A stretch of DNA of 64,000 nucleotides from positions 682,001 through 746,000 of the forward strand of contig NZ_RJKE01000001.1 of the NCBI RefSeq assembly GCF_003751225.1. Reading direction: 5' to 3'. Shown here in pieces: positions 19,903 to 26,657 of this stretch. Below the pieces are notes generated by a model. The model saw nothing but the letters and a program-made list of their open reading frames with translations, was not told the origin of the DNA and searched no databases. This DNA is from Actinocorallia herbida (GTDB lineage: Bacteria; Actinomycetota; Actinomycetes; Streptosporangiales; Streptosporangiaceae). Both the position numbers and the translations under genes were made by a program. Every line of letters starts with the position of its first letter. Within the stretch, counting starts at the first letter, position 1.

Positions 19903-19922
19903 AACTGTAACGTGTTCTAGTT
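19903..19922. promoter_or_regulatory. KstR-type operator in front of fadA5
   Basis: An imperfect palindrome reading AACTGTAACGTGTTCTAGTT, with core AACGTGTT and the TTCTAGTT right arm, the same pattern as the sites at 8608 and 27803. It overlaps the last codons of the upstream P450 gene, so the operator for fadA5 is partly inside coding sequence. Confidence 0.75.
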
Positions 19923-21086
19923 TGGCGCGTCGAGACTCACCTTGAGCGAGTGGTAGGTCGGCACGAGGACACCGCGCGCGGCGCGCCGCGAGACGACCCG
20001 GTAAGGGCGGCCCGTTTCGGTGAGCGCCTGGAGCATGCGCGTCACCTGGGTCCTGGCGACCGCGGCCCCCAGGCACAGATGACGTCCCGCGCCGAACCAC
20101 AGCTGGCGGTTCTCCGCCACGTACTCGCGGGTGACGTCGAAGGCTCCGGCGTCGTTGTTGGCCCGGTGGGTGAGCACGATGACGCGCTCGCCCTCGCGGA
20201 TCAGCCTTCCCTCGACCGTCACGTCCTTGGCCACGTGCCTGCCTATGAGGGGCGCCGGAGTAGCCACCCTCAAGCCTTCCCGCACGGCGTTGGGCATGAG
20301 GTCGGGTCTGGCGAGCAGTGTGCCGAGCTGGCCCGTGTCGTGCAGCAGGGCGACCGTGCGCGACGTCCCCGACGCGCCGGTCTCGGTCCCGGCGACGGCC
20401 AGGAGGGTGGCCAGGCCCCGGGTGAGGTCGAGGCTGAACCCCAGCTCACGGCAGCGGCCCAGGATGGTGTCCTGTCCGGCCGCCGCGTACGCCTCGGGGA
20501 CGGCCCGGGTCAGCTCGGCCGCGATCCGCGAGGCCGCCGCGATCTTCTCCTCGGGCAGATCGGTCGACGAGGTCGTGCCGAGAGCGAGCGCGGCGAGCCG
20601 CTCGCCCAGGGAGAACAGGTTCTCGTAAGGCGCCGCGTCCGGGCCCAGGCGCAGGCCGAGGAGGTCGGCCACCAGGCGTCCGGCCAGCACGCGGGTCGCC
20701 GCGGCGACGTCCACGGTCTCGCCCTCGCGCAGCCTCTCGGCGAGCCGCCTGTAGTGCTCGCCCTGCGCCCGCTCGACGAGCTCGGCGGCCGCCTGTTCGG
20801 TGAACAGGTCGCGGGCCGCGGTGCGCACCCGGGTGTGCTCGGTCCCGTCGAACAGCCCGGCCATCTCGGCGCCGAAGAGCTGGCTCCACATGTGCCCGAC
20901 ACCGCCCTCGCCGGCCATCGTGAACCCGCCGTGGTCGTTCAGCACGCGGCGGGCCAGGACGGGATCGGTCACCAGCCAGCCCAGCCGGGGCACCCGGGTG
21001 AGCCGTCCCGTCAGCCTCGAGCCTCTCAGCAGGGCGTACAGCCAGGGGTTGCCCTGACGGAGCAGGCGCGCCTCATACCGGTTCAT
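19917..21086 (-). CDS. Cytochrome P450 divergent from the OleA-like operon
   Basis: A 389-residue P450. The I-helix is '[11 protein letters not shown]', ExxR lies in '[11 protein letters not shown]', and the heme loop is '[15 protein letters not shown]' with the Cys ligand. It ends in '[17 protein letters not shown]', nearly the same tail as the P450 at 22.9 kb ('[17 protein letters not shown]'), so the two are paralogues with the same unusual C-terminus. ATG at 21086 has GGATGGAG six bases upstream; an ATG four codons earlier has poor spacing. It shares a 130-bp divergent promoter region with the OleA-like gene, which suggests it belongs to that pathway. fadA5 follows on the same strand. The substrate is unknown. 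Confidence 0.85.
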
Positions 21087-21142
21087 ATCGGTCTCCATCC
21101 TTTGTTCCCGTGCGATGATGCCGCGAACAAAGCTGGTCAAAG

Positions 21143-21148
21143 TAGGTA
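21143..21148 (+). promoter_or_regulatory. Candidate -10 box for OleA-like operon
   Basis: TAGGTA in the 130-bp divergent region, about 68 bp before the ATG at 21217, resembles the TANNNT boxes of other genes here. A GTACT/AGTAC pair around it (21146-21171) might be a regulator site. Tentative. Confidence 0.3.
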
Positions 21149-24216: not shown

Positions 24217-24219
24217 GAG

Positions 24220-25728
24220 TTGAGTCTTGTCAGGCAGGTGCTGGAGCGCGCGGAGGAGCACCCCTCCCGGACGGCCCTCATCGCCGGGGACGGGACGGAA
24301 CTCACCTACGGCGACCTCCGGCGCCGCGTCCTCGCCGTCCGCGACGGGTTCGCCGGGGAAGGGCTCGAAGAGGGCGACGGGGTCCTGTTCTCCGTGCGCC
24401 CTTCGCCGGAGGCCCTCGTCCTGGCGCTCGGCGTGGTCGCCGCGGGGGGCGTCGTCGTCTTCGCCGACCCCGGGGCCGGTCCTGAGATGTTCGAGGCCCG
24501 CCTCCGGCTCGCCGCGCCCCGCTGGTCGGCCGCCGAGTCGCTGCTGTACGCGGCGAGCCGGATCGGCCCCGTGCGGGCCTACGCGCGCCGCAGGGGCCTC
24601 CTGCTGCCGCGCCTGGCCGGGCTGCCCCTCAGGCACGTCTACAGCGGCCGCCGGCTGCCCGGCGTGCCGCGCGGCGCGAAGTCCCTGGACGCCTGGGCCC
24701 GCTCCCGTCCGTCCGGCGCGCCCGTCCGGGAGGCGGCCCCCGGCGACCCCGCCGTGGTGATCTTCACCTCGGGGACGACCTCCGCGCCCCGCGCCGTCGT
24801 GCACACCGAGGCGTCCCTGGCGTCCGGCCTCGACCTCTTCCGGGCCCGGGTGCCCCTGGCGCCCGGCGACACCGTGCACACCGACCAGCTCATGCTGGGC
24901 CTGCCCACGCTGGTCGCGGGCGCCTGCTGGTCGATGCCGCGGCTCGGCTGCCCGCCGGAGGAGTTCCGCGCGCAGCTCGCCGAGCGGCGCGCCACGCACA
25001 CCTTCTGCGTCCCGGTGCACCTCGCCGAGATCCTCGACGCAGCCCCCGGGCCGCTGCCCGAGACGCTGCGGCACGTGCTGCTCGGCGCGGCGCCCGCTCC
25101 GGCCGGGATCCTGCGCCGCGCCGCCGCGGCGGCCCCGCGCGCGGAGATCCTCTCGGTCTACGCGATGACCGAGATCGTCCCGGTGGCCCTCGCCTCGGCC
25201 GCCGAGAAGATCGCGCACGCCGAGGCGGCCGAGGGCGGAGACCTCCTCGGCGAACCGCTGCCGGGGGTGCGGGCGCGCGTCGCGGACGACGGCGAGCTGC
25301 TGCTCTCCGGACCGAACCTCTGCAAGGGCTATCTGGGAGAGGAGGACCATGCCGAACTGGCCACCGGGGATCTGGCCAGGTGGGAGGGGAAAAGCCTGGT
25401 TCTGTTGGGAAGGAAGAAGGACATGGTGATTCGGGGGAAGTTCAATATCTATCCGGGACTTTACGAACCGGCCGTGATGGCCCTTGACGGTGTGCGGGAG
25501 GCGGCTTTCGTCGGGGTTTCCGATGCTGAGACGGGTGATGAGGAGGTCGTCCTGGTCGTCGCGGGCGAAGTGGAGCCGGATGAGCTCGCCGTGCGTCTCA
25601 AGGGGGTTCTGGACGCGGGGGCGTGGCCGGACCGGATCGTCAGGGTCGAGGAGTTGCCCTACGGGGGTCGGGGCCGCAAACTCGACCGGAATGTTCTGAG
25701 AGGAATGGTTTCGCCAGGGGAGGGTTGA
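24220..25728 (+). CDS. OleC-like AMP-dependent ligase (candidate beta-lactone synthetase)
   Basis: A 502-residue ANL-superfamily enzyme. The phosphate loop is 'IFTSGTTSAPRAVV' (about 181-194), with Ser and Arg in place of the usual Gly and Lys. The adenine motif reads 'YAMTEIVPVALA' near 310, resembling the TEC/TE-xPV stretch of OleC rather than the YGxTE of ordinary CoA ligases. 'GDLARWEGKSLVLLGRKKD' is the hinge and 'GGRGRKLDRNVL' holds the C-terminal catalytic Lys. OleC adenylates a beta-hydroxy acid and closes it to a beta-lactone. A normal acyl-CoA ligase is the alternative. It starts at TTG 24220, 3 bp after the P450 stop. The last 130 codons have clearly lower third-position GC than the rest. 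Confidence 0.8.
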   Translation: MSLVRQVLERAEEHPSRTALIAGDGTELTYGDLRRRVLAVRDGFAGEGLEEGDGVLFSVRPSPEALVLALGVVAAGGVVVFADPGAGPEMFEARLRLAAPRWSAAESLLYAASRIGPVRAYARRRGLLLPRLAGLPLRHVYSGRRLPGVPRGAKSLDAWARSRPSGAPVREAAPGDPAVVIFTSGTTSAPRAVVHTEASLASGLDLFRARVPLAPGDTVHTDQLMLGLPTLVAGACWSMPRLGCPPEEFRAQLAERRATHTFCVPVHLAEILDAAPGPLPETLRHVLLGAAPAPAGILRRAAAAAPRAEILSVYAMTEIVPVALASAAEKIAHAEAAEGGDLLGEPLPGVRARVADDGELLLSGPNLCKGYLGEEDHAELATGDLARWEGKSLVLLGRKKDMVIRGKFNIYPGLYEPAVMALDGVREAAFVGVSDAETGDEEVVLVVAGEVEPDELAVRLKGVLDAGAWPDRIVRVEELPYGGRGRKLDRNVLRGMVSPGEG

Positions 25729-26657
25729 TGCGGATTGCTGTGACCGGTGCATCCGGATTCGTGGGCGGTGCCGTCTGCCGCGCGCTGGTCGCCCGGGGGG
25801 ACCGGGTCCTGGCCTACGGCCGCCGGGCCGCGGTGCGGCCCGAGCATGTGGGCGGTGCCCGCTACCGTTCCTGGGACCTCGCCAGGGGACCGCTCGAATC
25901 GGCCCCGGCCGTGGACGCCGTCGTGCACTGCGCGGGCAGCGTCACCGACTGGGGCCCCGTCAAGGGGTTCTTCGCCGTCAACCTCGACGGCACCCGGCAC
26001 GCGCTCGCCAGCTTCCCCGGCGCGCGGTTCGTCCACGTGAGCACGGCGAGCGTCTACGACCCCTACCGGCCCACCGTCATGGCCTGCGAGCACCTGGCCC
26101 CGGTCACCCGCTACCTGAACGGCTACGGGGCGTCCAAGGCCGCCGCGGAGCGGGCCGTGCTGAAATCGGGCGCCGAGAGCGTCATCCTCAGGCCGCACGC
26201 CGTGTACGGGCCGGGCGACACCACCCTGCTGCCCCGCGTGGAGGCCTCGGTGCGCGGCCCGTGGCTGCTCGCGGTGGGCAGCGGGAGGCAGCGGATCAGC
26301 CTGACGAGCGTGGGCAACCTCGTGCAGGCGTGCGTTCTGGCCTGCGCCCCTGGTCCGACCGGCGTCTTCAACGTGACGGACGCCGAACCCGTCGTCCTGG
26401 ACGACGCCCTCGCCCTGATCCTCGCCGAGCGCGGCATCCAGGCCGAGCGCGTCTACCTGCCCGCGGGCCCGGCCCTGGGACTCGCCGCGGTCGCCGAGGG
26501 GCTGCACCTGCTGGCCGGCGCGCGGCGGGCGCCGCGGCTCACCAGGTACGCGCTCGGGCACCTCGCCGTCGAGCGGACCCTGGACATCACCGCGGCGCGG
26601 ACGCGCCTGGGGTTCCGGCCGGAACCGACGTCCTTCGCGGGGGCCTACTCCTGGTAG
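25728..26657 (+). CDS. OleD-like NAD(P)-dependent reductase (extended SDR, 3-beta-HSD type)
   Basis: A 309-residue extended SDR. 'TGASGFVGGAVCRAL' near residue 6 binds the cofactor, 'HCAGSVTDWG' follows, and YxxxK is Tyr133-Lys137 in 'GYGASKAAAERAVL'. 'LRPHAVYGPGDTTLLPRV' and the C-terminal 'PRLTRYALGHLAVERTLD' track OleD, which reduces the 2-alkyl-3-keto acid made by OleA to the beta-hydroxy acid used by OleC. 3-beta-hydroxysteroid dehydrogenases share the fold, so a steroid substrate is the main alternative in this setting. Its ATG overlaps the ligase stop by one base (TGATG), showing translational coupling. It is the last gene of the operon. Confidence 0.85.
   Translation: MRIAVTGASGFVGGAVCRALVARGDRVLAYGRRAAVRPEHVGGARYRSWDLARGPLESAPAVDAVVHCAGSVTDWGPVKGFFAVNLDGTRHALASFPGARFVHVSTASVYDPYRPTVMACEHLAPVTRYLNGYGASKAAAERAVLKSGAESVILRPHAVYGPGDTTLLPRVEASVRGPWLLAVGSGRQRISLTSVGNLVQACVLACAPGPTGVFNVTDAEPVVLDDALALILAERGIQAERVYLPAGPALGLAAVAEGLHLLAGARRAPRLTRYALGHLAVERTLDITAARTRLGFRPEPTSFAGAYSW

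Follow-up and report, generated by a model that had tools for sequence, protein, structure and literature searches.

The closest described system to the locus studied here is a gene cluster of Actinoplanes atraurantiacus, which was predicted in 2020 to encode OleA, a glycosyltransferase, OleC, a cytochrome P450 and OleD, without oleB, and for which a glycosylated, hydroxylated beta-lactone has been suggested as the product (PMC7064751, available part of the article). Its OleA was active on p-nitrophenyl hexanoate in cells and precipitated on purification (PMC7064751, same part); as far as that part goes, ester cleavage is the sole step proven for this cluster. A related operon of Actinocorallia herbida was studied here. 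The analysed genome is a single contig of 9.8 Mb, and the window, i.e. the whole stretch of 64,000 nucleotides that was analysed, corresponds to its bases 682001-746000. The best reading of the sequences is that the operon represents an ancient side branch of the oleACD pathway, one without OleB, and would have recruited a family 2 glycosyltransferase (GT2) and P450s. We estimate at about 0.55 the probability that it encodes a pathway derived from ole and leading to a 2-alkyl-3-hydroxy lipid that is oxidised and glycosylated. The original prediction, made from the letters of the window, had presented it as a candidate new pathway, a claim that falls because both the cluster type and the product idea were in print in the article just cited (available part). 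The finding is real and is a variant of what was predicted there; to that prediction, the present analysis adds how widespread and cohesive the module is, and a doubt over its "OleC". No later work on this cluster type was found in the open-licence literature, a scope outside which most subscription journals lie.

The coordinates of the open reading frames (ORFs) agree with the layout described in the original prediction: five plus-strand genes, encoding a condensing enzyme of the ketoacyl synthase III type (KAS), GT2, a P450 (P450b), an AMP-forming ligase and an extended short-chain dehydrogenase/reductase (SDR), are separated by 11, 7 and 3 bp and then overlap by one base, and a second P450 gene (P450a) diverges from them (Table 1). 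In the most likely pathway, the OleA-like enzyme would catalyse a Claisen condensation of two acyl thioesters into a 2-alkyl-3-keto acid, which the OleD-like SDR would reduce to the 2-alkyl-3-hydroxy acid. The ligase would adenylate the carboxylate of this acid, and the acyl-AMP would then either close to a beta-lactone or pass to a thiol or hydroxyl. P450b, with P450a where present, would hydroxylate a chain, and GT2 would attach a sugar to the hydroxyl. At the sequence level, there is support for the gene order, the intact motifs, an OleA-type Glu-Pro pair, the kinship with OleA and OleD, the lack of a close OleB relative and the conservation of the module; each chemical step, be it condensation, reduction, activation, hydroxylation or glycosylation, is deduced from the families of the enzymes.

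Homologous loci were sorted into four types. Type A comprises the window-type loci (order KAS-GT2-P450-ligase-SDR) and type S the sister or Streptomyces-type loci (order KAS-GT2-ligase-P450-SDR). Type P is made up of KAS-ligase-SDR loci from the same order or class, mostly with OleB. Type O is a set of 12 reference loci that the OleD profile selected within the phylum, ten of them with OleB and two (L095, L097) with none shown.

The catalytic Cys, His and Asn noted earlier for the condensing enzyme were confirmed by alignment, and a Glu87-Pro88 pair was found in addition. This pair aligns with the Glu-Pro of 3fk5, a Xanthomonas-type OleA. At the corresponding column (Glu117), Glu-Pro is present in 65/65 OleA-type rows (25 of type A, 7 of type S, 21 of type P and 12 of type O), and the same column holds Val in the genome's own FabH and Ala in its third KAS. 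This glutamate has been described as the catalytic base, a mechanism that OleA shares with no other member of the superfamily, and the Glu-Pro pair as present in all but two of the OleA proteins surveyed (PMC7064751, available part). In the KAS tree, types A, S and P cluster together (100/99), with type O next to them (82/52) and the genome's FabH apart; L132, L133, L134 and L147, type A rows that come from other families, fall with type P, not with the other A rows. The P-type enzymes are 41-48% identical to the window KAS, and OleC, OleD and OleB lie within 20 kb of them in 15 of the 16 fetched loci of the family (L051-L066), OleB being also present in L142 and L146. KAS, ligase and SDR are uninterrupted in 11 of these 16 loci; the KAS lies a few kb away in L058, L062, L065 and L066 and stands alone in L060. 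The Glu-Pro pair, the tree and the P-type loci with OleB place the KAS of the operon closer to condensing enzymes encoded beside OleB than to FabH. The OleA-like character assigned to it earlier is thus supported, and a grouping with FabH, which was looked for in the tree, did not appear.

The P-type loci themselves are mosaic, as their KAS groups with the window type and their ligase and SDR with classical OleC and OleD in the respective trees. One of them, L056, encodes a single-module polyketide synthase of 2564 amino acids (L056:1267-8961; KS, AT, DH, methyltransferase, ER-type, KR and carrier domains by Pfam) directly upstream of its KAS-ligase-SDR-OleB operon, placed as if it supplied OleA with an acyl chain.

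The reported resemblance of the SDR to OleD also holds. The protein carries a YGASK motif, the OleD model NF042422 is its best curated model (132 bits), and it ranks first on OleD among the SDRs of the genome (131.6 bits; next, 88.9). Its score is below the NF042422 cut-off of 580 bits, a narrow one that is passed by 0/346 genomes of the phylum. In the SDR tree, types A, S, P and O stand together (100/99) against nine other SDRs of the genome, those picked by the OleD profile. OleB was searched in 35 genomes with a single query, the OleB of the P-type locus L056, after Abhydrolase_1 had been dropped as a marker (98 matches). The six genomes with P loci gave 445-719 bits and the other 29 at most 115 bits; with this one query no close relative was found in the operon or in the A. 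herbida genome, whose best match (90 bits, 32% identity) resembles ordinary alpha/beta hydrolases, so the earlier statement that OleB is missing stands to that extent. Among 80 named sister loci, the best-scoring OleB match was 28.5% identical (L243).

The ligase is the component whose assignment changes. Its tree was rooted on nine nonribosomal peptide synthetase domains and included 17 other ligases of the genome; the type A and S ligases join OleC, apart from these 17 (100/98). An earlier tree of in effect three groups had left the window ligase unplaced. The ligase motif is YAMTEIVPVA, and the TE..P within it is common to OleC rows; its Pro also occurs in 6/17 other ligases of the genome, so the feature is not diagnostic for OleC. 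A C-terminal RHx[SA]K is present in 26/26 rows of the OleC clade (types O and P) and 0/29 A and S rows, and GRxxK[LP]DR is found in 29/29 of the latter. On the OleC model PRK09274, three ligases of the OleC clade, drawn from types O and P, reach 528, 598 and 536 bits, and neither of the two NCBIfam OleC models is among the 25 best of the 89 families matched by the window ligase. By profile, then, it is not a member of the OleC family. We read it as a lineage of its own that probably branched off on the OleC side, and whose second half-reaction may be either ring closure or transfer to a thiol or hydroxyl. Of the "OleC-like" label given to it earlier, a probable position beside OleC survives; the score far under the OleC cut-offs and the missing RHx[SA]K do not fit it.

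The genes of the operon travel together. KAS was surveyed in 249 genomes of the order (E ≤ 1e-60) and the orthologous group was counted by hand. A match was found in 104/249 genomes; the orthologous group comprises 79/249 (62-100% identity, one partial), the rest being 41-48% identical. At class level, 33/394 genomes matched at E ≤ 1e-45. KAS, GT2, P450b, ligase and SDR are kept in this order in 16 of 20 fetched loci of the orthologous group, the L039 ligase and the L042 SDR matching in two pieces. The incomplete loci are L036, L037, L045 and L047, and in three of these four genomes a second locus supplies the genes that are absent: G213 has GT2-P450b-ligase-SDR, and G096 and G094 have GT2, P450b and SDR beside P450a in the sterol region. 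Reading-frame fusions join GT2 to the ligase (L037, and the truncated loci L105 and L106) and GT2 to P450b (L132). Because of the order kept in 16/20 loci, the genes retained over two loci in three genomes and the fusions, the module is not a chance neighbourhood; the possibility that relatives would never have the genes together was checked and is contradicted by the 16 complete loci. The sister operon (type S) occurs frequently in Streptomyces and Actinoplanes. When named genomes were scanned with a GT2 alignment, 438 relatives came up and the 80 best were retained; these lean to type S because the first row of the alignment was the L141 GT2, whose best matches are in Nocardioides. Among them, the ligase is present in 80, KAS in 78 and the SDR in 71, and the nine loci without SDR end early at contig ends. 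The operon is therefore widely kept in actinobacteria, as seen from the orthologous KAS of the order and from these GT2-like stretches, of which the best 80 were seen.

The accessory enzymes also appear intact. Both P450s keep the heme Cys signature and P450a its second motif, and GT2 keeps its own (Table 1). P450a is a paralog of P450b, and at E ≤ 1e-100 it is matched in 10/31 operon carriers and in 0/14 of the non-carrier genomes searched. A role as P450-derived glycosyltransferase activator was considered and rejected, as the P450s fall far short of that model (81 and 56 versus 343 bits) and retain the heme Cys. A second GT2 is present in 38/80 sister loci. In L141 (5210-6766) it is fused to a BrkB-type membrane domain, and a matching domain occurs in 4/80 named loci (L164, L165, L166, L176).

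Several results weigh against an ole-derived pathway. The window KAS scores 173 bits on a FabH-type subfamily model versus 157 bits on PRK09258 (OleA type). Its best matches among solved structures are FabH proteins, followed by 3fk5. The little Actinoplanes OleA that was recovered condensed none of the C8 to C16 acyl-CoAs tried (PMC7064751, available part). The window ligase obtains 114 bits on PRK09274 (cut-off 478), where it ranks 30/32 among the ligases of its own genome, and its C-terminal part scores 24 bits with OleC and 44 bits with CoA ligases. A tree in which the A and S ligases are forced together with the 17 others is worse by 11.4 log units, and the approximately unbiased test does not reject it (p = 0.25), so that a grouping with CoA ligases, named earlier as a possible refutation, is not favoured by the tree and yet stays within the confidence set. 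Lastly, the absence of OleB rests on one query. As to PRK09258, its cut-off of 285 bits is also missed by the L056 KAS (149 bits), which lies beside OleB; a reference ole KAS (L086) scores 424 bits.

Several scenarios may explain these observations, and their probabilities overlap with that of the ole-derived lipid pathway and do not sum to one. One serious possibility, a little short of even odds, is that the product is a glycosylated, hydroxylated beta-lactone as proposed for A. atraurantiacus, and that the ligase is a diverged beta-lactone synthetase. The position of the ligase lineage beside OleC, the failure to find OleB with the query used and the N-terminal part of the Streptomyces-type ligases, which scores higher with OleC-clade than with CoA-ligase profiles in 7/7, all agree with ring closure. 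Yet the published Actinoplanes "OleC" itself reaches only 54 bits on PRK09274, even lower than the window ligase, none of the 29 ligase rows of types A and S has the RHx[SA]K of the OleC clade, and the N-terminal part of the window ligase gives 147 bits with OleC-clade versus 156 bits with CoA-ligase profiles. The original idea of an oxidised, perhaps glycosylated beta-lactone or related lipid thus keeps its OleA- and OleD-like enzymes, the lack of OleB and the module, and is weakened in the identity of its OleC.

Alternatively, and with rather lower probability, the product could be an open-chain, mycolate-like glycolipid, in which case the ligase would activate the 2-alkyl-3-hydroxy acid so that CoA, a carrier or a sugar hydroxyl could accept it, and no ring would close. 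The C-terminal part of the ligase is nearer to CoA ligases in 22/22 window-type rows and nearly equal in the Streptomyces type, and the A10 Lys is retained in every ligase row. The A8 Gly is found at one of two columns in 22/22 window-type rows, as in 17/17 CoA ligases; an argument from its loss in the window type was dropped on that account. The second GT2 and the BrkB-type domains of the sister loci would also suit a glycolipid. Against this, the five genes of the operon include no acyl carrier or acyltransferase gene, and only 2/7 Streptomyces-type ligases have the A8 Gly. Were such mycolate-like glycolipids made, the lipid route would be an unrecognised one. In its boldest form, which we regard as unlikely, the ligase would not be a lactone synthetase and the operon would give bacteria a second way of making acyl glycolipids of the mycolic acid type (2-alkyl-3-hydroxy), one distributed over Streptomyces, Actinoplanes, Nocardioides and the family to which the window belongs; the published assignment of "OleC" and of a glycosylated beta-lactone would then be wrong.

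It is very unlikely that an ordinary FabH-like enzyme and a fatty acyl-CoA ligase make up an unremarkable lipid cluster: matches to FabH-type models and structures are as good as those to OleA, and the Actinoplanes homolog gave no condensation, but the Glu-Pro pair of all 65 rows, the separation from the genome's FabH in the KAS tree and the ligase tree speak against it.

Table 1 Genes of the operon, the divergent P450 gene and the neighbouring KstR-like sites (positions in the window)
Feature	Position	Strand	Evidence
P450a, cytochrome P450, divergent from operon	19917..21086	-	PF00067, heme Cys, AGTET motif
KAS III / OleA-like condensing enzyme	21217..22197	+	Profiles, structure matches, Glu87-Pro88, Cys111, His252, Asn282
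GT2, family 2 glycosyltransferase	22209..22943	+	PF00535, RTDADC motif
P450b, cytochrome P450, 36% identical to P450a	22951..24216	+	Pfam family, heme Cys
AMP-forming ligase, TTG start	24220..25728	+	Profiles, tree; own lineage, probably beside OleC
Extended SDR, OleD-like	25728..26657	+	NF042422 132 bits, best in genome, tree
KstR-like site, 0 mismatches, upstream of thiolase, outside operon	19906..19919		Consensus scan
KstR-like site, 1 mismatch, upstream of FadD-like gene, outside operon	27807..27820		Consensus scan

The operon had also been described as lying inside a KstR-controlled sterol region, which is correct in part. Upstream, a steroid 3-ketoacyl-CoA thiolase exceeds its cut-off (635 versus 515 bits) and KstR-like sites adjoin the operon, but the downstream KstR-like TetR protein (140 bits, cut-off 280) is below its cut-off, as is the FadD17-like ligase, also downstream (463 bits, cut-off 850). 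With the KstR consensus, the window holds 13 sites at ≤1 mismatch versus 2.1 expected, two of which flank the operon (19906 and 27807); the divergent promoter of the operon has none at that threshold, its best site having two mismatches (at 21073). The KstR-like sites serve the neighbours. Among the 20 fetched loci, sterol neighbours are found in L031-L036 and in none of the other 14 (L037-L050); L037 and L047 have only weak FadE-like matches (27-28%), and the two corresponding genomes carry GT2, P450b and SDR in a sterol region. The seven fetched type S loci (L135-L141) gave 0/7. The sterol-region location is retained in five genera (g1, g12, g19, g29, g38), and g12 and g29 keep GT2, P450b and SDR there although their KAS and ligase lie elsewhere. 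Among the fetched loci, the location is thus a trait of five genera, in which it may matter, and is not needed for the module. That the enzymes would use a steroid-derived acyl-CoA, or that the operon would belong to KstR-controlled sterol breakdown, is highly improbable despite the thiolase, the adjoining sites and the location kept in five genera, given the promoter without such a site at ≤1 mismatch and the loci without sterol neighbours, 14 of the orthologous group and seven of type S.

Some other features of the surroundings deserve mention. Window positions 29429-31657 encode a protein of 742 amino acids. Acyl-CoA dehydrogenase models match its C-terminal half, and by eye its N-terminal half resembles them too; in L036, L280 and L281, tblastn matches to this protein are split in two. 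Three minus-strand genes at 12091-15208 encode a protein of 361 amino acids without NCBIfam match, a methyltransferase-like protein (by eye) and a GT4-like protein. In a search for conserved neighbours with six-frame ORFs, which is noisy, similar frames recurred in L031, L032, L033, L035 and L036, and a frame downstream of the SDR was conserved in 12 loci (L038-L046, L048-L050); the two such frames that were checked are LytR-CpsA-Psr proteins (L038:14352-15728, L044:2459-3754).

Compared with known systems, the operon shares with the oleABCD olefin operons its OleA-like and OleD-like enzymes and a ligase lineage probably beside OleC, and differs from them in the lack of a close OleB relative, the addition of GT2 and P450 and a ligase below the OleC cut-offs. 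The nocardiolactone and lipstatin clusters, compared here by description and not by sequences, likewise have oleACD-type genes without oleB (PMC7064751, available part), but the window has a GT2 and P450 in addition. The A. atraurantiacus cluster has the same five kinds of genes and no oleB; in that species, a homologous operon (L237), with a KAS 47% identical to that of the window, agrees with the published gene order. That order is KAS-GT2-ligase-P450-SDR, whereas the window has KAS-GT2-P450-ligase-SDR; the Actinoplanes P450 matches P450b at only 28%, and the window has a second, divergent P450. The window nevertheless has what characterizes a cluster of the A. atraurantiacus type, namely the five genes together, no oleB and homologous proteins, the P450 being weakly alike.

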